Of a stretch of 41,464 nucleotides of DNA, positions 2,705-12,287 are shown piece by piece; positions within the stretch are counted from its first letter, which is position 1; every line of letters begins with the position of its first letter. The translations under genes were made by a program, and so were the position numbers. The notes beneath the pieces are model-generated. The model worked only from the letters and a program-made list of their open reading frames with translations. It made no database searches and had not been told where the DNA came from. The stretch spans positions 1 to 41,464 of the forward strand of contig CALCKU010000065.1 of NCBI GenBank assembly GCA_937965735.1. Reading direction: 5' to 3'. The DNA is from an uncultured Caulobacterales bacterium (GTDB lineage: Bacteria > Pseudomonadota > Alphaproteobacteria > Caulobacterales > Maricaulaceae).

Positions 2705-3013
2705 AATCGCCCATCCTGCTCATAAAAGCTGTGTTTCGTCTTTGAGCAAGATATAATCTTGTCCGTAAATGTCTAGAACCCAAAACAGCTCTATCCATAA
2801 CATCAGTATCAAGTGCAGGCCTATCCCGATCAGGCCGCGTCAAGACCACTACGGACCGATGAAACGGCGGTAATATTAACCGCAATCTTATTTCCTTTTA
2901 CGGCCAATTCCTTTTTTGCCAATTCCTACCTTATTCCTATCCCCGTTCCAGTGCCCGCATGGATGCTTAAAATTAGATTTGACCCTCATATATTCCTTTC
3001 GCTACAACGGCTT
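2705..3013. other. Divergent intergenic region, SIMPL lipoprotein / carboxyltransferase
   Basis: This 309-base stretch lies between the divergent starts. The carboxyltransferase reading frame remains open back to 2813, so an N-terminal extension (alternative ATG at 2963) cannot be excluded. However, the translated extension is hydrophobic and low in complexity (IPIPVPVPAW) and is unlike any start of the family. I take the region as the promoter area for both genes and see no clear operator. Confidence 0.5.
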
Positions 3014-4582
3014 ATGACACACCCGCCTTCTGATTGGACAGCCGAGCTTGATGAACTGAAACGGCGCGAAGCTTTTTCTGAGAAAATGGGCGGAGCGGAA
3101 AAAGTTGCCCGTCAACACGCACACGGGAAAATGGATGCACGGGCCCGAATAGACAGTCTTCTGGACGATCAATCTTTTCGCGAAATTGGAAAAATTGCTG
3201 GCAAAGGCACATATGCTAAAGACGGCACACTGGAGCATGTTTCCCCGTCAAATTTTATTTTTGGACGCGGACGTATCAATGGGCGCACTTTAGCCCTAAC
3301 AGCCGATGATTTCACCGTGCGCGGCGGCGCAGCAGACGCTGCCATTTACCGTAAATTTGTCATGGCCGAACAAATGGCACATGAACTACGCCTCCCGCTT
3401 ATTCGTATGATTGACGGTACGGGCGGCGGGGGTTCGGTAAAAATGCTTGACGCCATGGGTTTTACCTATGTGCCATTTGTACCGGGTTGGGAACATGTCG
3501 TAAAAAACCTAGACACTGTACCGGTCGTTGGATTAGCCCTTGGCCCAACCGCAGGCCTCGGCGCGGCGCGAGTTGTCGCCAGTCATTACTCGGTCATGGT
3601 CAAAGGCCTCTCTCAAATCTTTACGGCGGGCCCTGCCATTGTCGGAGCTCTTGACCATAAAATGAGACCTAATGTAGATGGTAGACATGAACCCGCGCAA
3701 GCCGATTTAGATAAAGAGGCTTTAGGTGGATATGAAATCCATACTCGAAACGGCGTGATTGACGACGCAGCCGAGAGCGAAGACGATGCCTTTCGTATGG
3801 CGCGAAATTTCCTGTCATTCCTACCCGATTATGTCGGGGCGCCGCTACCGCGTACCACCAATACAGATCCCGTTTCGCGCTCGGACGAGGCCTTACTCTC
3901 GGTCGTGCCGCGTGACAAAACACAAGCCTATAATATGCGCCGTATTATCAATAGCCTTGCGGATTTGGACTCTGTTTTCGAAATGGGACGGGGTTGGGGG
4001 CGCGGCGTGATAACGGCATTTGCTCGCTTTGACGGTTGGCCTGTCGCGGTCATGGCCAATGACCCAATGTTTCTGGGCGGTTCATGGACAGCGGACAGTG
4101 CCGAAAAAGCAAAGCGCTTTATCCAACTCGCTGAAAAATTTCAGATCCCCGTGATTAATCTTGTCGATAATCCAGGGTTTATGATTGGCCTTGAGGCTGA
4201 AAAGGCCGCCACAATACGGTGCGGTGTAGACGCTATGAATGGTATTTACCGTTCCACCATGCCGTGGGCGAGTGTTATAATCCGCAAAGCTTACGGCGTT
4301 GCTGGGGCGGCAATGTCAAACCATTCAAAATTTCAATATCGCTTGGCATGGCCGTCCGGGGATTGGGGGTCATTGCCCATAGAAGGCGGGGTAGAAGTTG
4401 CCTATCAATCAGAGCTCGTAAAATCCGAGGACCCTGTTCTTGCGCTAAAGGCGATTAAAGCGCGCCTTAAAAATGTCACATCCCCGTTTCGTACGGCTGA
4501 GCAGTTTATGATCGAAGATATTATTGATCCAAGGGAGACCCGAGAAAGACTGTGTGAATTTATCAATCTTGTAACGCGGTAA
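3014..4582 (+). CDS. Acyl-CoA carboxylase carboxyltransferase (beta) subunit
   Basis: This belongs to the biotin-dependent carboxyltransferase family (propionyl-CoA/methylcrotonyl-CoA carboxylase beta type), which moves CO2 from carboxybiotin to an acyl-CoA. With the start at ATG 3014 it has 522 residues, close to the usual 510-540. The start gives a typical N-terminus (DELKRREAFSEKMGGAEKVARQHAHGK). N-terminal CT-domain hallmarks are the FTVRGGAAD segment and the glycine-rich TGGGGSVKML oxyanion region. C-terminal CT-domain hallmarks are VINLVDNPGFMIG, the ATIRCGVDAM helix and KAYGVAGAAM. No biotin carboxylase or biotin carrier gene is adjacent, so its partner must be encoded elsewhere and the acyl substrate cannot be assigned. 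It consumes bicarbonate indirectly, and an inorganic-carbon uptake block follows on the other strand. Confidence 0.85.
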   Translation: MTHPPSDWTAELDELKRREAFSEKMGGAEKVARQHAHGKMDARARIDSLLDDQSFREIGKIAGKGTYAKDGTLEHVSPSNFIFGRGRINGRTLALTADDFTVRGGAADAAIYRKFVMAEQMAHELRLPLIRMIDGTGGGGSVKMLDAMGFTYVPFVPGWEHVVKNLDTVPVVGLALGPTAGLGAARVVASHYSVMVKGLSQIFTAGPAIVGALDHKMRPNVDGRHEPAQADLDKEALGGYEIHTRNGVIDDAAESEDDAFRMARNFLSFLPDYVGAPLPRTTNTDPVSRSDEALLSVVPRDKTQAYNMRRIINSLADLDSVFEMGRGWGRGVITAFARFDGWPVAVMANDPMFLGGSWTADSAEKAKRFIQLAEKFQIPVINLVDNPGFMIGLEAEKAATIRCGVDAMNGIYRSTMPWASVIIRKAYGVAGAAMSNHSKFQYRLAWPSGDWGSLPIEGGVEVAYQSELVKSEDPVLALKAIKARLKNVTSPFRTAEQFMIEDIIDPRETRERLCEFINLVTR

Positions 4583-4719: not shown

Positions 4720-5580
4720 TTATTCAATCGGAGATAAAAGCTCTTGTGCCGTTACAAGTTGGCGAACGCCGTGTGACTTTGTTTCATTGAAAACATTGCC
4801 TTGCTCCGCCCAGCGGTGCAACGAGCTAATATCAACACGCGCGCAATTTGGGCGTACACTCCAAGTTACGCTTAGCGGTGAGCACGTCGATTGATCATAG
4901 CTCGGCCCTGTTGTTGAACCCCGAAATACAACAGGCGCACCTGTGTCAGACGGAATCATACCCGCTTGGTGAAAACCACTCGCAGCTTTGCCTTTATAAT
5001 CCATTGTTGTGAAATCAAGGGCATTTACGGGATCATTCACGACCAAGAAAACTTGCGCTTCAACGCGAAGAAGCGGATCTGTACACGTGTCTGATAAACA
5101 AGATCCTAAACCTTCACCTGGTTGAATGTCACAAGATGTATGCACCCAATGGACTTCGATTGTATCGCCCGGTTTGACGCCTTTATACGCGCCTTTACCC
5201 TCATAGGGATCCATCAATTCAGTTTCAGACAGAGAACTCGCATCATTACACGCATAGCCGCCAGACGCAGTGTCATTGACGAAGACGCTAAAACCTGGCC
5301 CTTTATGCTCGGCATTTGTGTGTGTATGAATATTACACAAGTTCATCTCTGTGGACGCTGGTGCCATTTTAAATTTCGTCATGTTCAAACCGGTTAAGCT
5401 TGAAATGTCACGCGGCGTTTGCGGCCCCATATCTGTACAGAGATTAGCGGTTTTAGCCGCGACCTGAACCGTTGCTTCCGAATTAGCATCCGTCACACTG
5501 CCTGTTTCTTTTACAGATGTCGGAGATGAGCAAGACACTAAAATAAGGCATGATGCCATTGCAAGTAATTTAGTTTTCAT
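4720..5580 (-). CDS. Delta-class carbonic-anhydrase-like lipoprotein
   Basis: The 286-residue protein has a lipoprotein signal (LILVSC, Cys17), which places it in the envelope. The mature part carries a His-rich metal-site motif NIHTHTNAEHKG (His85, His87, His92) followed by EVHWVHTSCD (His144, His147), and ends with PLSVTWSVRPNCARVDIS. This pattern is what I know from bacterial proteins annotated as delta-class carbonic anhydrase, the class first found in diatoms: zinc bound by His residues, reversible CO2 hydration. Several paired cysteines (Cys48, 82, 111, 150, 161, 166, 233, 246) suit a disulfide-bonded periplasmic domain. GAGGG precedes the ATG. Its position 125 bases after sbtB supports a role in bicarbonate supply. 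I rely on motif memory, so the exact class needs a profile search; an uncharacterised metal-binding lipoprotein is the alternative. Confidence 0.72.
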   Translation of the reverse strand: MKTKLLAMASCLILVSCSSPTSVKETGSVTDANSEATVQVAAKTANLCTDMGPQTPRDISSLTGLNMTKFKMAPASTEMNLCNIHTHTNAEHKGPGFSVFVNDTASGGYACNDASSLSETELMDPYEGKGAYKGVKPGDTIEVHWVHTSCDIQPGEGLGSCLSDTCTDPLLRVEAQVFLVVNDPVNALDFTTMDYKGKAASGFHQAGMIPSDTGAPVVFRGSTTGPSYDQSTCSPLSVTWSVRPNCARVDISSLHRWAEQGNVFNETKSHGVRQLVTAQELLSPIE

Positions 5581-5705: not shown

Positions 5706-6026
5706 TTAAAATTTATCTTTGCGAATTACCTGCACATCGGAAACGCTCAAAACGCCAATATGCATACCGATCAGGACTTCAAGTTTTTGCGTGACCGCGT
5801 CTATGAGCGCAACGTCCATAATTGAAATAATCAAGACCATATCGCCACTGGCTGAAATATCTGTTCCGCGCTGCCAGCGCCGTCCATTTCCAGACTCTCC
5901 AAGACTAAAACCTGCCATGCACGGAAGGGCTGAATAGCCCGTCACCCCGCAGCCTTCCAAAATTCGACAAGCGCGTTTAAATGCAGGCTTTTCAATGATA
6001 AGTTCCAAACGTTTTTTATCAAACAT
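5706..6026 (-). CDS. sbtB: PII-like protein, SbtB type (regulator of SbtA)
   Basis: The 106-residue protein has the PII/GlnB-like ferredoxin fold pattern: strand RLELIIEKP, helix FKRACRILEGC, strand VTGYSAL, then a long T-loop (residues about 36-58, AGFSLGESGNGRRWQRGTDI) with Gly/Arg residues, strand MVLIISIMD, helix IDAVTQKLEVLI, and a last strand. It starts 12 bases after sbtA, which is the usual arrangement for SbtB. In cyanobacteria SbtB is a trimer that binds adenine nucleotides (cAMP, AMP, ADP, ATP, c-di-AMP) and plugs SbtA through its T-loop. Unlike the cyanobacterial form, this protein ends at RKDKF and lacks the C-terminal Cys-containing loop (GPEGC type), so redox and apyrase-type control tied to that loop is probably absent. 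Nucleotide binding is inferred. Confidence 0.85.
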   Translation of the reverse strand: MFDKKRLELIIEKPAFKRACRILEGCGVTGYSALPCMAGFSLGESGNGRRWQRGTDISASGDMVLIISIMDVALIDAVTQKLEVLIGMHIGVLSVSDVQVIRKDKF

Positions 6027-6038
6027 TGTCGTCCCTTT

Positions 6039-7037
6039 CTATAAGCCCGTAATCCACTGACCGAGCAAGATATAAAGCGGAATACCCAGAGTCAGATTAA
6101 ACGGAAATGTTACCCCCAAAGACAGCGTTAAATAAATTGATGGTTGCGCCTGCGGAAGCGCTAAGCGCATGGCGGCAGGTACGGCAATATATGACGCAGA
6201 AGCCGCAAGCGTAATCAGGAGCGCCGCATTGCCAGCACTAATGTTCAAAACGTAACAAAAACCGCATGCAATCATAGCCGAGATTAGGGGCATATAAACC
6301 CCAAAGCCAAGAGCCCCCACATTTAAATCTCGCCAACCTTGGCGCAGGCCGCGGCCAGCTGACAAACCCATATCCAGCAAGAAGAGGCATAAAACCCCTT
6401 GAAATGGGTCAACAAAGAAAGGCGATATTTTCTCCATACCAGCCTCACCTGTTATCCACCCAATCAAGAGCGCGCCAACAAGCACAACGACGGACGCATT
6501 GAGCATAACTTCACGCACAAGCTCGCCTCTTTCAGACCCTATTGCCCCCTCGCCAATCGCGCCTTTTTCTTTAAGACCTTTGCGGGCAAGCATGAGCGCA
6601 GACATAATCGCTGGAACTTCCATGACGGCGGCAATCGCTACCATATAGCCAGAGGTCGAAATCCCCGCCAATTGCAGGGCTTGCGTCGCGGCAACGTAAG
6701 TAACGATTGATATGGACCCGTAATGCCCCGCCGTTGCGGCAGCATTGATACGGTCCATACCACTGGTCAAGCGCAAAGCAAGATAGGCCAGAAAAGGCAA
6801 TCCGAAAGACAGAATTAAAGCAATAAGGGCCAAGAAAATAAAATCAGGCCCCAAAACGGCCTTTGACATTTCAACGCCGCCTTTAAGGCCAATCGCCATC
6901 ATTAAATAAAGCGCGAGCCCCTTGGCGAAAGCCTCTGGCACTGTCATTTGTGACCGTAAAAGCGCCGCAATAAGGCCTAAGACAAAAAACAGGACAATCG
7001 GCGATAAGAGTGTCGAGAGCGCTAAATCGAGTGACAT
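6039..7037 (-). CDS. sbtA: Sodium-dependent bicarbonate transporter, SbtA type
   Basis: This 332-residue integral membrane protein has about ten hydrophobic segments arranged as two inverted halves. It matches the Sbt_1 family: LSPIVLFFVLGLIAALLRSQ near the start, the MAIGLKGGVEMS segment (first half), ATAGHYGSISIVTYVAA (substrate/Na+ region with the conserved GHYGSIS), a cytosolic linker with LARKGLKEKG, FQGVLCLFLLDMGLSAGR, and a second-half LAASASYIAVPAAMRLALPQA. SbtA takes up HCO3- with Na+ across the inner membrane at high affinity. The coding region sits five bases after the permease gene and 12 bases before sbtB, so all three probably share an mRNA. It is slightly shorter than cyanobacterial SbtA (about 370 residues), mostly in the central linker. 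Na+ dependence here is by family. Confidence 0.93.
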   Translation of the reverse strand: MSLDLALSTLLSPIVLFFVLGLIAALLRSQMTVPEAFAKGLALYLMMAIGLKGGVEMSKAVLGPDFIFLALIALILSFGLPFLAYLALRLTSGMDRINAAATAGHYGSISIVTYVAATQALQLAGISTSGYMVAIAAVMEVPAIMSALMLARKGLKEKGAIGEGAIGSERGELVREVMLNASVVVLVGALLIGWITGEAGMEKISPFFVDPFQGVLCLFLLDMGLSAGRGLRQGWRDLNVGALGFGVYMPLISAMIACGFCYVLNISAGNAALLITLAASASYIAVPAAMRLALPQAQPSIYLTLSLGVTFPFNLTLGIPLYILLGQWITGL

Positions 7038-7042
7038 TCAGA

Positions 7043-9127
7043 CTACTTTTTATTCATGCGTTGAAGTTTCACCAAATCATCGGGTTCGCCAATAATCGCG
7101 ACCCCGTCCCCTGAACTTAAGATCGTCTCGGGTGTTGCCGCCATAACCATACCATTGCGTTCGATTAATGCAATTAAACACGAATCCGCAATTTCGACCT
7201 CTGAAATCGCTTTGCCGACTTGACACGCCAATACTGGGAATGAAGAAACAGGCCCATGCAGGAAATGATCGTCCCGCATGAGGACTTCATTCATATCTTT
7301 ATCTGTGTTTGCAGACAACCAACGGGTCTCAAAATGATCGCTTTGCACGACCTCGGCCAAATGCCCGGCGAGGCGTAAATCAAGCCCTACAGGTTTTTTC
7401 GGAGTTAATAGGAACATCAATGTGTGAGCGTTTTCCAAATTTAGAACATCTAGCTTGGCTTGCGGCCCAAAACGCAGGACAAAAAGCTCGGGCTGTTTCA
7501 CCGAATCCGCGCTCTGATAAGCAATATAAACGCCGTTATTAATGGGTCGTAATTGAAGTTTATCTTTTGAAAAACAGGTTTCAATCACATCGGATTCAAA
7601 TTGAAAATCTGCTTCTGCACGCTCTGTCATAATGCTGTGCAATTGCCCAAGATCATAGTGTCCATAGCGAAAATCCATCATAGCACTGCGTGCAATCACA
7701 GCCTCATAAGAGAGGTTCTCAGCTTGTGTACGGTCGTGAATAATGGTCATCAGTTCGCGCTCTAGCCCTTCATAACGTTGCTGACCCAAACGCTCATGCA
7801 CGTGGAAAATTGCGCCGCGGCGCTCTGTCCGCTTTGACCCGTAAAAATGATACCACAAGACACAACCAATCGTGACCATGCCTGTAAAAGCAATGGCGAG
7901 AATTCCCATTTCAATAATGAGCCAAAACGAGATCAGAATACCCGTAATCTGTAACCATGGGTAGAAAGGCGCTTTAAATCCGGGTTGATAGCTATCAATA
8001 CGGGATTCGCGCATCACAATAACCGCGACACAAATGAGACCAAAAAGAAGAAGTTGAAATGCAGATGCAAGCTTGGCCACAGATGCAACATCAAATAAGA
8101 CCAGCACAGAAATCATGGCCAAGACTGTGACAATGATAGAAGTCGTCGGCGTACCATGTTTACCGATTTCAGAGAGACGGTTTGGCACAAGTTTGTCTTT
8201 AGCCATAGCATAGGGATAACGCGAAGCCGACATAATGCCTGCATTCCCTGTTGAAGCAAAGGCGGCGATTGCGGCCACGACAATCAAAAAAACGCCGATA
8301 CCAAAAGGCCAATGCCCGAGGAAGACCCGTCCCGCATCCGCAATAGGGGTTAAACTGTCATAGAGGGCTTGAGGTTCGAGTAATTTAATTAAGATCAACG
8401 TACCGAATGTATAGATTATCGTTGCCGTAATCAGAGACAATGTCATGCCCAGCGGTATATTACGGTCAGGATTTTGAACTTCTTCTGCGACACTCGCAAC
8501 CTTAGTCAGGCCCGCATAAGAGACAAAGACCAAGCCTATCGTCGAGACAAACCCAATCAAGCCAGATTTAAAAAATTTGCCATGATCATCCTCAGGGCGG
8601 AACGCTTCGACCCAGCCAGTCTCTTTAAATCCCAATAAGCAAAAGCCGATTAAAATAATAACCAAAGTCGTGACGAGAATCCGCTGAAGCAAAGTCGTTT
8701 CTTTAGCCCCAAATATATTGATGACGCCAAAGGCTATCGTTAGTAATATCGCTGTAATCGTGAAGGGTAAGTCTAGGTAAATCCCTAAATATGCGCCCAT
8801 ACCAACAAGCGCAAATGCACTTTTAAAGACGACGGCAATCCATGAACCTAATCCGCCAATGGTTCCCATAAGCGGCCCCATGGCGCGGTCGAGGAAATAA
8901 TATGTCCCGCCCGCTTTCGGCATAGCGGTTGACAATTCGGCCATGCAATACATGGCAGGTAAAATCAAAAACCCAGCTAAAAAATAAGCGAGGTAAACAG
9001 AATTACCTGTGTAGGAGGCCGCAATACCTGGCAGAAGAAACAAGCCCGAGCTGAACATTGCCCCTGTTGACATGGCATAAACATCAAACAGGGTCAGGTT
9101 CTTTTTTAATGAATTCGTATCGCTCAT
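7043..9127 (-). CDS. APC-superfamily permease fused to EIIA-like and RCK_C (TrkA-C) domains
   Basis: The first about 425 of 694 residues form 12 membrane segments of the amino acid-polyamine-organocation (APC) type, with the family signature SSGLFLLPG in TM1, a SYAGLTKVASVAEEVQNPDR loop region, and ASTGNAGIMSASRYPYAMA. A long cytosolic tail follows. Residues about 475-600 resemble a PTS EIIA type-2 fold (NGVYIAY in place of NGIAIPH), but the phosphorylated His is Tyr537, so it cannot act as a phosphocarrier. Residues about 625-690 resemble an RCK_C/TrkA-C ligand-binding domain (SEVEIADSCLIALIERNGMVMAATPETILSSGDGVAIIG). The gene heads the sbtA-sbtB operon (five-base gap to sbtA), so it may act in or sense inorganic-carbon or Na+/osmotic state. 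The substrate is unknown; an amino-acid or cation-coupled transporter is equally possible. Confidence 0.85.
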   Translation of the reverse strand: MSDTNSLKKNLTLFDVYAMSTGAMFSSGLFLLPGIAASYTGNSVYLAYFLAGFLILPAMYCMAELSTAMPKAGGTYYFLDRAMGPLMGTIGGLGSWIAVVFKSAFALVGMGAYLGIYLDLPFTITAILLTIAFGVINIFGAKETTLLQRILVTTLVIILIGFCLLGFKETGWVEAFRPEDDHGKFFKSGLIGFVSTIGLVFVSYAGLTKVASVAEEVQNPDRNIPLGMTLSLITATIIYTFGTLILIKLLEPQALYDSLTPIADAGRVFLGHWPFGIGVFLIVVAAIAAFASTGNAGIMSASRYPYAMAKDKLVPNRLSEIGKHGTPTTSIIVTVLAMISVLVLFDVASVAKLASAFQLLLFGLICVAVIVMRESRIDSYQPGFKAPFYPWLQITGILISFWLIIEMGILAIAFTGMVTIGCVLWYHFYGSKRTERRGAIFHVHERLGQQRYEGLERELMTIIHDRTQAENLSYEAVIARSAMMDFRYGHYDLGQLHSIMTERAEADFQFESDVIETCFSKDKLQLRPINNGVYIAYQSADSVKQPELFVLRFGPQAKLDVLNLENAHTLMFLLTPKKPVGLDLRLAGHLAEVVQSDHFETRWLSANTDKDMNEVLMRDDHFLHGPVSSFPVLACQVGKAISEVEIADSCLIALIERNGMVMAATPETILSSGDGVAIIGEPDDLVKLQRMNKK

Positions 9128-9214
9128 AATAGGTCTCTTCAGGCTTTTGAGCGCAAATTAAAGATAAAACCCTAACTTAATCTCTAATTTTTCACAATGT
9201 TACTTAACCCTTTA

Positions 9215-9238
9215 TGCCCACTCGAATACCTGTGGGCA
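9215..9238 (-). terminator. Hairpin after nhaA
   Basis: TGCCCAC (9215-9221) and GTGGGCA (9232-9238) form a perfect 7-bp stem with a 10-base loop, seven bases after the nhaA stop. No T-run follows on the minus strand, so it may be a weak terminator or an mRNA 3'-end stabiliser between nhaA and the permease-sbtAB operon. Confidence 0.45.
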
Positions 9239-9245
9239 ACGATGC

Positions 9246-10481
9246 TTAGGCTTTCACGGGATCCGTATCGAGTGTTTTAGAGTCGGACTTTTGTCCAACG
9301 TGACTCTCAATATTTTTTGAACAAAAATATCTGAGCATTACAAATCCCATTACACCCGATGCAATTGACCCCATTAACACACCCAAACGAACAGAGTTGA
9401 GCATTGCGTCGCCTTCAAAGGCAAGCGTTCCGATAAAGAGACTCATCGTAAAGCCGACACCGGTTAGGCAGGCGACCCCGTAAACTTGGCACCAATTCGT
9501 GTCCTCTGGTAACTTGGCAAAGCCAAGCTTAACAGCGAGCCATGCGAGTGAGAACACACCCAATTGCTTACCTATAAACAGGCCGAGCGCAATACCGAGA
9601 GGTAGCGGCGCTAAAAGATCTGCAAGGCTAATCCCTTTGAGCGACACACCGGCATTAGCAAAGGCAAAAAGCGGCAATATAAGGAACGCAACCCATACAT
9701 GCAAACCATGTTCTGCGCGGTGCAGAGGTGAGCTTTCATGTGGGTTCTTGGCTTTCAGCGGTATCGCAAGCGCGGTTACAACACCCGCAAGCGTGGCATG
9801 AACACCTGACTTTAACACACAGGCCCAGACGAAGACTCCGATCAACGCATAGGGCGTGATGCGCATGACGCCCATACGATTGAGCGCAAACAAGGCCATG
9901 GTTCCAACACCGCCCCATCCAAGCGCAACGAGTGAGAGGTCTTGTGTGTAAAAAATGGCAATGATAATAATCGCTGCAAGATCATCAATAATTGCAACCG
10001 CAAGCAATAATATCTTGAGAGAAACTGGCACACGCGAACCGACAAGTGCCAAGACGCCGAGCGCAAACGCAATATCCGTTGCCGCTGGGATTGCCCAGCC
10101 CTGTATCGCGACCGGGTCTGTCCAATTCAGGAAGGCGTATATCCCCGCAGGTGCAAGAATACCGCCAAGCGCTGCGAATAATGGTAAGGCCGCTTTGTCA
10201 AAACTTGAAAGCTCGCCTTCGAAAACCTCATTTTTGATTTCTAACCCGACAAGGAAAAAGAAGATCGCCATTAAGCCATCATTAATCCAAAGTAAGAGCG
10301 GTTTAGCGATTTCAAAACTGCCAAATTGAATTTCAACAGGCGTCGATAAAAAGCCCGAATACAGGCCCGACAGCGGTGAATTATTGGCGATCAACGCAAA
10401 CAAGGCAACGAACATGAGCACGAAGCCCGCAGACGTTTCAAGTCTTAGAAAATCCTGAATTTTATTAACAATACGCGGCAT
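9246..10481 (-). CDS. nhaA: Na+/H+ antiporter NhaA
   Basis: NhaA exports Na+ in exchange for H+ across the inner membrane and controls pH and salt. The 411-residue protein shows the family hallmarks: RLETSAGFVLMFVALFALI in TM1, LWINDGLMAIFFFLVGLEIK, the discontinuous helix IPAATDIAFALGV with Asp136 (equivalent to Asp133 of E. coli), and the transport-site pair AVAIIDDLAA with Asp166 and Asp167 (equivalent to Asp163/Asp164). A hydrophilic C-terminal tail ends in DTDPVKA. The gene lies 118 bases upstream of the permease-sbtA-sbtB operon on the same strand. As SbtA uses inward Na+, NhaA could restore the gradient. This link is inferred from position; NhaA is also common as a stand-alone gene. 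Confidence 0.95.
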   Translation of the reverse strand: MPRIVNKIQDFLRLETSAGFVLMFVALFALIANNSPLSGLYSGFLSTPVEIQFGSFEIAKPLLLWINDGLMAIFFFLVGLEIKNEVFEGELSSFDKAALPLFAALGGILAPAGIYAFLNWTDPVAIQGWAIPAATDIAFALGVLALVGSRVPVSLKILLLAVAIIDDLAAIIIIAIFYTQDLSLVALGWGGVGTMALFALNRMGVMRITPYALIGVFVWACVLKSGVHATLAGVVTALAIPLKAKNPHESSPLHRAEHGLHVWVAFLILPLFAFANAGVSLKGISLADLLAPLPLGIALGLFIGKQLGVFSLAWLAVKLGFAKLPEDTNWCQVYGVACLTGVGFTMSLFIGTLAFEGDAMLNSVRLGVLMGSIASGVMGFVMLRYFCSKNIESHVGQKSDSKTLDTDPVKA

Positions 10482-11381: not shown

Positions 11382-12287
11382 ATGAAACCGAGTCTACGTC
11401 AGTTACAATATCTTGTTGCCATAGCCGAAACGGGAACCATGAGTGAGGCCGCCAAGCGTACCTTTGTCAGCCAACCGAGCCTGTCTATGCAAATTAAAGA
11501 TATGGAAGCCCAGCTCGGCGCTGCCCTTGTTGAACGCGGACGTTTAGGCGCAGTATTAACGCCGCTCGGCGTAGAAGCCGTTCGGCGCGCCCGACATATT
11601 TTACGCCAAGTGGAAGATTTAAAAGTACTGGCAAGTGAAGCCAAAGGAACGCTTGCTGGCCGCGTGCGCCTTGGCGTTTTACCAACAGTCGGCCCGTATC
11701 TTTTGCCCCGCGCAACCCGCCGATTACACCAAGAATATCCCGCCTTGCGCTTAACCGTTCACGAGGAGCGCACAGTTGATCTTGAGGAACATTTATCAGA
11801 CGGTCGTTTTGACGTCATTATTTCAACACCAGAAGACCATCCTGGTACGAAGTCTCATTCGATTGTACAGGAAAATATTTATATTTGCGTTGCGCCCGAT
11901 GACCCCCTCGCGCTTGAAACAGGGCCTGTCCACATGAAAGCGCTCAAAGGCCGCGAGTTTTTAACGCTGGGGCATGGGCATAAATTTGCCATTGTCGTTA
12001 AAAACCTTGCGAGTATTGCTGGTGCGAGTACAAGCGGCACATATGAAGGCACCTCGCTTGATGCCATTCGTCAAATGGCTTCCATGGGTGAGAGCATTGC
12101 CGTGCTACCCAGTTTATACGCCATATCGGAAGCCAAGCGCGATCCGCTCTTAATTGTTCGCCCTATTCAGCATGCCAAAGCACAAAGAGAAATTGCCTTA
12201 ATGTGGCGCGATAGCTCCCCTTTAGCAGAAAAATTTGATACGATTGGCGCAGTTTTTGAAGATGTCGCAAAAGAAATTATGAAATAG
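11382..12287 (+). CDS. OxyR-like LysR regulator lacking the redox cysteines
   Basis: This is a LysR-type regulator of OxyR length (301 residues). The N-terminal winged HTH spans about residues 3-62 (TMSEAAKRTFVSQPSLSMQIKDME). The effector domain has the OxyR signature GVLPTVGPYLLPRATRRLHQEYP with Thr102. In OxyR, peroxide oxidises Cys199 to a disulfide with Cys208. An ungapped alignment by eye of GREFLTLGHGHKFAIVVKNLA to the OxyR segment (LLMLEDGHCLRDQAMGFC) puts Lys201 and Ala210 at those positions. The only cysteine is Cys169. It should therefore not sense peroxide by the disulfide mechanism, though it retains the fold and probably the DNA specificity: OxyR-type operators occur at its own promoter and at katG. 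It diverges from a three-gene small-protein operon. It may respond to another ligand or act constitutively. Confidence 0.85.
   Translation: MKPSLRQLQYLVAIAETGTMSEAAKRTFVSQPSLSMQIKDMEAQLGAALVERGRLGAVLTPLGVEAVRRARHILRQVEDLKVLASEAKGTLAGRVRLGVLPTVGPYLLPRATRRLHQEYPALRLTVHEERTVDLEEHLSDGRFDVIISTPEDHPGTKSHSIVQENIYICVAPDDPLALETGPVHMKALKGREFLTLGHGHKFAIVVKNLASIAGASTSGTYEGTSLDAIRQMASMGESIAVLPSLYAISEAKRDPLLIVRPIQHAKAQREIALMWRDSSPLAEKFDTIGAVFEDVAKEIMK

Follow-up and report, generated by a model that had tools for sequence, protein, structure and literature searches.

An APC-superfamily transporter with an RCK_C domain and an EIIA-like domain that lacks the phosphorylated histidine, encoded between nhaA and sbtAB in an alphaproteobacterium

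The window, by which we mean the whole stretch of DNA analysed (41,464 nucleotides from an uncultured marine bacterium of the Caulobacterales), contains on its minus strand the gene order nhaA (9246-10481), APC (7043-9127), sbtA (6039-7037) and sbtB (5706-6026). The first of these encodes, by family match, a Na+/H+ antiporter, and the second is a confirmed open reading frame of 694 codons for an APC-family transporter with a cytoplasmic EIIA-like and RCK_C tail, whose full-length orthologues are 66-86% identical. SbtA belongs to the Na+-dependent bicarbonate transporter family (PF05982, E = 7.4e-108; E = 1.3e-20 against the Synechocystis SbtA structure 7cye), and its gene is separated from APC by 5 bases. 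The nearest solved relatives of the SbtB-like PII protein are 5d4n and 5d4o, which we take to be the bicarbonate-responsive CPII of Thiomonas. A bicarbonate-sensory PII-like protein is mentioned in the accessible text of PMC5579400, with a citation of the CPII study. The initial annotation placed APC at the head of an sbtAB operon; the adjacency to sbtAB stands, but nhaA comes first and APC is the second gene. The side-by-side sbtA and sbtB are as in SbtA-SbtB uptake systems, from which the locus differs by the added nhaA and tailed APC genes and by a host genome (89% complete) in which RuBisCO had no match. Because of the latter, the most likely role of the bicarbonate module is in heterotrophic carboxylation or in pH balance. 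The genome falls in a Hellea-like group, and the nearest named relatives of the APC protein are from Robiginitomaculaceae. The cluster is also present in two culturable relatives, Hellea balneolensis DSM 19091 (L035) and Litorimonas cladophorae (L051).

At 125 bases past sbtB comes, also on the minus strand, a gene (4720-5580; PF10563, E = 6.6e-66) whose product is CA_like, of the delta carbonic anhydrase family, and this neighbour recurs in one other genome (L072). The start of the protein resembles that of a lipoprotein, with a signal reading LVSC, and the product is probably periplasmic, in a host that is probably heterotrophic. An acyl-CoA carboxylase-like gene (2813-4582) has no counterpart near APC in any of the other 49 loci queried. 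A divergent LysR regulator gene lies on the plus strand (11382-12287), with OxyR as its best NCBIfam match, below the cut-off of that model. Reading by eye suggests a hairpin, GCCCAC...GTGGGC, in the minus-strand gap that separates nhaA from APC (9200-9240); it has no run of T, and APC may be attenuated or transcribed apart from nhaA. A scan for promoters and terminators returned 22 promoter-like sites (shuffled mean, 11.5) and nothing decisive in the gaps between genes.

The transmembrane domain of the APC protein (residues 10-435; 7823-9100, minus strand) has the LeuT/APC fold, as judged from an AF2 model of the full-length protein (pLDDT 82.2) and its structural matches. Together with a Pfam AA_permease domain (E = 4.9e-44), this fold places the protein in the APC superfamily. 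The closest structure is GkApcT (6f34; Z = 42.8, rmsd 2.3 over 418 residues, 24% identity), followed by CAT1 and ApcT (Z = 39.2-42.8 for the GkApcT/ApcT/CAT group); NKCC1 (Z = 38.9) and KimA (Z = 38.3) were also matched. No NCBIfam permease model scored above its curated cut-off among the matches listed (25 of the 35 matched), the best being TIGR00909 with 187.9 bits against a cut-off of 556.8.

The tail consists of an EIIA-Ntr-like domain (residues 481-616; 7280-7687, minus strand), recognized by profile and AlphaFold model, and an RCK_C/TrkA_C domain (residues 620-690; 7058-7270, minus strand), recognized by Pfam, profile and Foldseek. The initial annotation had proposed both, naming structure prediction as a check, and both folds came out of a tail-only AlphaFold model (pLDDT 77.9). 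In the window protein alone the PTS_EIIA_2 match is sub-threshold (E = 0.081), while the tails of relatives match EIIA down to E = 1.2e-17, and a profile built from 45 family tails matches PtsN structures at E = 4e-9 (2a0j) to 2e-7. The model superposes on EIIA-Ntr 2a0j with Z = 15.5 (142 residues, rmsd 2.7; Foldseek E = 2.9e-7), and the range for EIIA-Ntr/PtsN structures (2a0j, 3urr and 4gqx) is Z = 15.1-15.5; profile and model thus agree on the type-2/PtsN fold. For the terminal domain, TrkA_C (PF02080) matches residues 637-690 with 35.5 bits against a cut-off of 27, and matches 44 of the 45 family tails at E = 0.01; the TrkA RCK_C structure 3jxo is matched by the tail profile (E = 3.3e-6) and by the model (Foldseek E = 8.4e-5).

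The next group of structural matches to the tail consists of the cytoplasmic domains of SLC4 carriers (BTR1, Z = 14.4; AE1 and AE2, 12.5 each; NDCBE, 11.1). Here too an EIIA fold is attached to a membrane carrier, but in SLC4 proteins it is N-terminal rather than C-terminal, and no sequence match to them was seen. SLC4 membrane domains have another fold than LeuT, and we take the likeness to be a parallel rather than a sign that the carriers are related. The available part of a review of SLC4 proteins describes the resemblance of the AE1 and NBCe1 domains to EIIA, as well as regulation of the K+ transporter TrkA by EIIA (PMC4664831). The carrier fold, the EIIA fold and the RCK_C domain are each known; in the literature searched we found neither a permease fused to EIIA and TrkA_C nor an amino-acid permease with sbtAB, so that the combination is one for which no paper was found.

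The window domain differs from PtsN in being fused to a transporter and in lacking the phosphorylated histidine. In place of the G-x-A-x-P-H motif, the segment GVYIAY of the window protein aligns with GVAIPH of 2a0j, which puts Tyr537 (codon at 7517-7519, minus strand) at the position of the active His, as the initial annotation had supposed. In the family alignment, which holds 45 rows, omits six truncated loci of 49 (L066, L071, L072, L077, L079 and L080) and includes L078 twice for its tandem copies, column 537 reads Tyr in 25 rows, His in 7, Thr in 4, Leu in 3, Ile in 2, Arg in 2, Phe in 1 and Met in 1, so that His is absent from 38 of 45. Six distant rows carry the canonical PH[FL]R (three from Phycisphaerae, one from BMS3Abin04 and two from SAR324), and all six fall outside a 39-row clade that contains the window protein (branch support 98, by a quick method). 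Within this clade, His is lost in 38 of 39 members; the exception, L067 from Aurantiacibacter, supplies the seventh His, with other residues around it (MHRS). A single loss of an active phospho-switch in the lineage of the window would explain this most simply, although the tree is of the "quick" kind, with some very long branches, and midpoint rooting is no proof of the direction. The genome of the window still encodes a true EIIA as a protein of its own (E = 4.7e-29). Five APC genes inside the alphaproteobacterial clade (L041, L042, L046, L058 and L059) lie on contigs labelled Bdellovibrionales, Gammaproteobacteria or Acidimicrobiales, either through lateral transfer or through mis-binning of metagenome contigs.

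Gene context was counted in 36 of the 49 related loci gathered, namely those with flanks of 1.3 kb or more on each side (13 were left out). Near APC we found nhaA in 15 loci, LysR in 14, sbtB in 12 and sbtA in 11, and nhaA was near APC in all 11 of the sbtA-linked loci. The first conserved transporter gene of the cluster nhaA - APC - sbtA - sbtB is thus nhaA and not APC. The APC-sbtA gaps are -4 to 35 bases in nine loci. In one genome (G008), beta-CA, a BicA-like SulP gene and APC follow each other on one strand in place of sbtAB (best model for the SulP protein BicA, E = 3.4e-150, yet under the model cut-off), and sbtA was not found in that genome. This arrangement reinforces what the sbtAB adjacency had led the initial annotation to propose, a place for the APC protein in a bicarbonate-uptake module. 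Elsewhere in related genomes, sbtA lies beside beta-CA, NhaA or Mrp subunits; in L111 (5991-7255) and L112 (5963-7277), sbtA-sbtB are followed by mnhE/mrpF-type Na+/H+ antiporter genes (with a Pfam check for L111 only), where another antiporter takes the part played by nhaA in the window. In L054 (9480-10040), nhaA, sbtB and APC are direct neighbours, and sbtA was found neither among them nor elsewhere in the genome; sbtB may here accompany APC without its usual partner, or, the locus being from one metagenome assembly, the assembly may be at fault.

The partnership is not obligate, because sbtA is missing from 26 of the 47 genomes with an APC family member (a count in which L072 and L079 share genomes with L071 and L066) and nhaA is not near APC in 21 of the 36 loci. 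We therefore rejected APC as an obligate partner of sbtA, which is present in 21 of 47 genomes and linked in 11 of 36 loci. The family-wide 21 of 47 is hardly more than in the relatives as a whole, where sbtA occurs in 26 of 61 genomes; an enrichment shows up only when these relatives are split by APC, with sbtA in 8 of 10 genomes that have the gene and in 18 of 51 that lack it (Fisher p = 0.012, kinship ignored). On the tree, at least eight changes are needed for sbtA linkage and at least seven for nhaA linkage, and stand-alone APC genes have no constant partner among their neighbours. APC thus joins bicarbonate modules repeatedly without requiring them. A family-alignment search through 385 genomes from the class and 398 from the phylum returned only the copy in the window at strict thresholds; with two or three candidates scored per genome, a miss in this search is weak evidence. 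The initial annotation regarded homologues far from sbtA with a known amino-acid substrate as evidence against its reading; homologues in genomes without sbtA are indeed common, but a substrate came up for none of them.

The substrate site was compared between the 45 family sequences and 21 other APC proteins of related genomes, taken one per locus (codon coordinates below are all on the minus strand). Lys102 in TM3 (8822-8824) is Lys in 45 of 45 family members and in none of the 21 others, and Lys209 in TM6 (8501-8503) in 44 of 45 and again in none. Ser26 in TM1 is invariant in the family where all 21 others have Gly, and Thr208 in TM6 (44 of 45) stands where 18 of the 21 carry Glu or Asp. 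Position 155 in TM5 (8663-8665) is Leu in all 45 family members and Lys in 18 of the 21 others, and it aligns with the TM5 Lys of GkApcT; the Lys that marks H+-coupled transporters of the ApcT/GkApcT type (presumably K158 in ApcT and K191 in GkApcT) is thus missing. The family resembles GkApcT, ApcT and CAT in its membrane fold, but differs from them in this loss, in the two lysines of TM3 and TM6 and in the added tail. The TM1 small-residue motif S-S-G and Tyr204-x-Gly206 of TM6 are kept. Judged by these alignments, the substrate site is probably unlike that of amino-acid permeases.

TM8 contains a consecutive Ser/Thr pair, Ser292-Thr293 (8249-8254; Ser292 in 44 of 45, and Thr293 in 41 of 45 plus one Ser), which is what we assume a Na2-type sodium site would have, the identity of the site being presumptive. 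The TM5 Lys of ApcT occupies the sodium site of Na+-coupled relatives, and from its loss combined with the Ser292-Thr293 pair we infer that the APC permease is Na+-coupled. It may be, as was first suggested, a second bicarbonate or Na+-coupled transporter beside SbtA.

Homologues were also found in haloarchaea (63 plasmid records at E = 1e-30 or better), from which six regions with seven proteins were compared. Five of the seven have 42-45% identity in the membrane domain and keep Lys102, Thr208 and Lys209, but their tails differ from the EIIA and RCK_C arrangement: three of the four scanned among these five have a significant USP match, so that a USP-type tail replaces both domains. This association of the same membrane part with differing tails indicates that the sensory tail is exchangeable. 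A TrkA_N-type gene directly precedes the APC homologue in two of the six regions (L125 and L127), and in L129 a divergent homologue (32% identity, without Lys102 and Lys209) lies beside TrkH and Mrp genes. The regulators in these tails and neighbourhoods belong to types that serve monovalent-cation transport. The presence of Lys102 and Lys209 in distant relatives, including five of the seven haloarchaeal proteins, implies that these residues predate the link with sbtAB, and the substrate therefore need not be bicarbonate.

The explanation that we prefer, tentatively and with rather less than even confidence, is that the protein is a secondary transporter of the APC superfamily that was recruited to a module for acquiring bicarbonate, where it would move a small anion with Na+ under a gate formed by a PtsN mimic and RCK_C. 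In this scheme NhaA would renew the Na+ gradient that SbtA would spend to import HCO3-, the PII-like SbtB would sense the state of the cell, and the APC carrier would move HCO3- or a short carboxylate together with Na+. The EIIA-like domain would act as a built-in, permanently unphosphorylated mimic of PtsN that restrains or positions RCK_C, and the carrier would be released by RCK_C or another input, perhaps SbtB. Since the fused domain cannot take a phosphate at the His site, control would no longer depend on the nitrogen PTS. The action of the tail as a gate is proposed by analogy with YcgO (CvrA), where, according to the accessible text of PMC11808508, unphosphorylated PtsN binds the tail of this K+/H+ antiporter and is proposed to block its activation by its RCK domain. 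YcgO is a CPA1 carrier and its PtsN is a separate protein, whereas the APC protein has the PtsN-like domain fused and unphosphorylatable at that site, so that the domain in cis could be a constitutive form of the YcgO regulator. A tail made of two borrowed control modules, one of them without its chemical switch, suggests a new way of gating inorganic-carbon-linked transport. The more specific version, in which the protein is a Na+-coupled HCO3- symporter of LeuT fold, acting alongside SbtA or SulP/BicA, and its dead EIIA-Ntr domain is a fixed regulator of RCK_C that converges on the EIIA-fold domain of SLC4, is improbable in our estimate.

As for the substrate itself, a small anion would be the leading candidate, with considerable doubt; a monovalent cation and an amino acid both appear unlikely, to the same degree, and any other substrate would be less likely still. 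A transporter for K+ or another monovalent cation would offset the effects on charge and pH of the HCO3-, Na+ and H+ fluxes through SbtA and NhaA. It is given the weight that it has mainly because of the haloarchaeal tails and neighbours described above (the TrkA_N-type genes, and TrkH and Mrp beside the divergent homologue), to which can be added the KimA and NKCC1 matches of the membrane fold and, in the available portions of PMC11808508 and PMC4664831, regulation of K+ transport by both RCK_C and PtsN. Near-invariant lysines in TM3 and TM6 would be unexpected at a cation site, however, as would Thr-Lys in TM6 where other APC proteins carry Glu or Asp. A possible further point is that KimA relies on the acidic residues D36 and E233 (PMC6994465, in the part available), while within the family's own alignment the conserved acidic residues of TM1, TM3 and TM6 come down to D15 at the start of TM1.

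The same replacements in TM1, TM3, TM5 and TM6 weigh against an ordinary amino-acid permease that is merely sited in the bicarbonate cluster, or co-expressed with it for carbon/nitrogen balance, as do scores below the cut-offs of all NCBIfam permease models among the matches listed and the recurrence of the gene beside two unrelated bicarbonate carriers. Such a permease would nevertheless fit the best solved relatives, which are cationic amino-acid transporters, the retained TM1 and TM6 motifs, and the many homologues that stand alone.

The remaining alternative concerns the control of the transporter. The initial annotation suggested a nucleotide-linked control shared with sbtAB; in its c-di-AMP form, RCK_C would read this second messenger, and cyanobacterial SbtB does bind c-di-AMP (PMC10117731, in the text accessible). 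Of the five genomes whose distant relatives of the APC protein keep the His, four have a DAC-domain (c-di-AMP synthase) gene, but none was found in 60 of 61 genomes searched, including that of the window and all ten with APC, nor in any of 17 others searched from the clade (this further search covered 22 of the 47 APC genomes). Moreover, the SbtB of the window ends without the CGPxGC loop motif of SbtB (PMC8352866). Because no diadenylate-cyclase gene came up in the window's genome or in the clade genomes searched, we discarded c-di-AMP as the control signal, and regard it as very unlikely.

If the carrier does move HCO3-, it would represent a new class of inorganic-carbon transporter beside those known in heterotrophs. 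Closely similar membrane domains form a natural series with a phosphorylatable EIIA (Planctomycetes and SAR324), a dead EIIA (the clade of the window) and USP-type tails (haloarchaea), which makes it testable how a PTS signalling domain turns into a fixed gate. The series also allows multiple origins of EIIA folds on bicarbonate-linked carriers to be tested. Among the members with a canonical motif, the Phycisphaerae locus L078 (7747-12136) has two tandem APC-EIIA-RCK_C genes 23 bases apart, both with PH, and one copy (7747-9966) is very divergent (tree branch 2.79). The two SAR324 copies (L075, 11225-12112; L076, 9835-10722) have an extra stretch in the EIIA-like domain that appears to contain a TGATP..RGAALPHLRL motif for a second time, which would fit a duplication of the segment around the active site.
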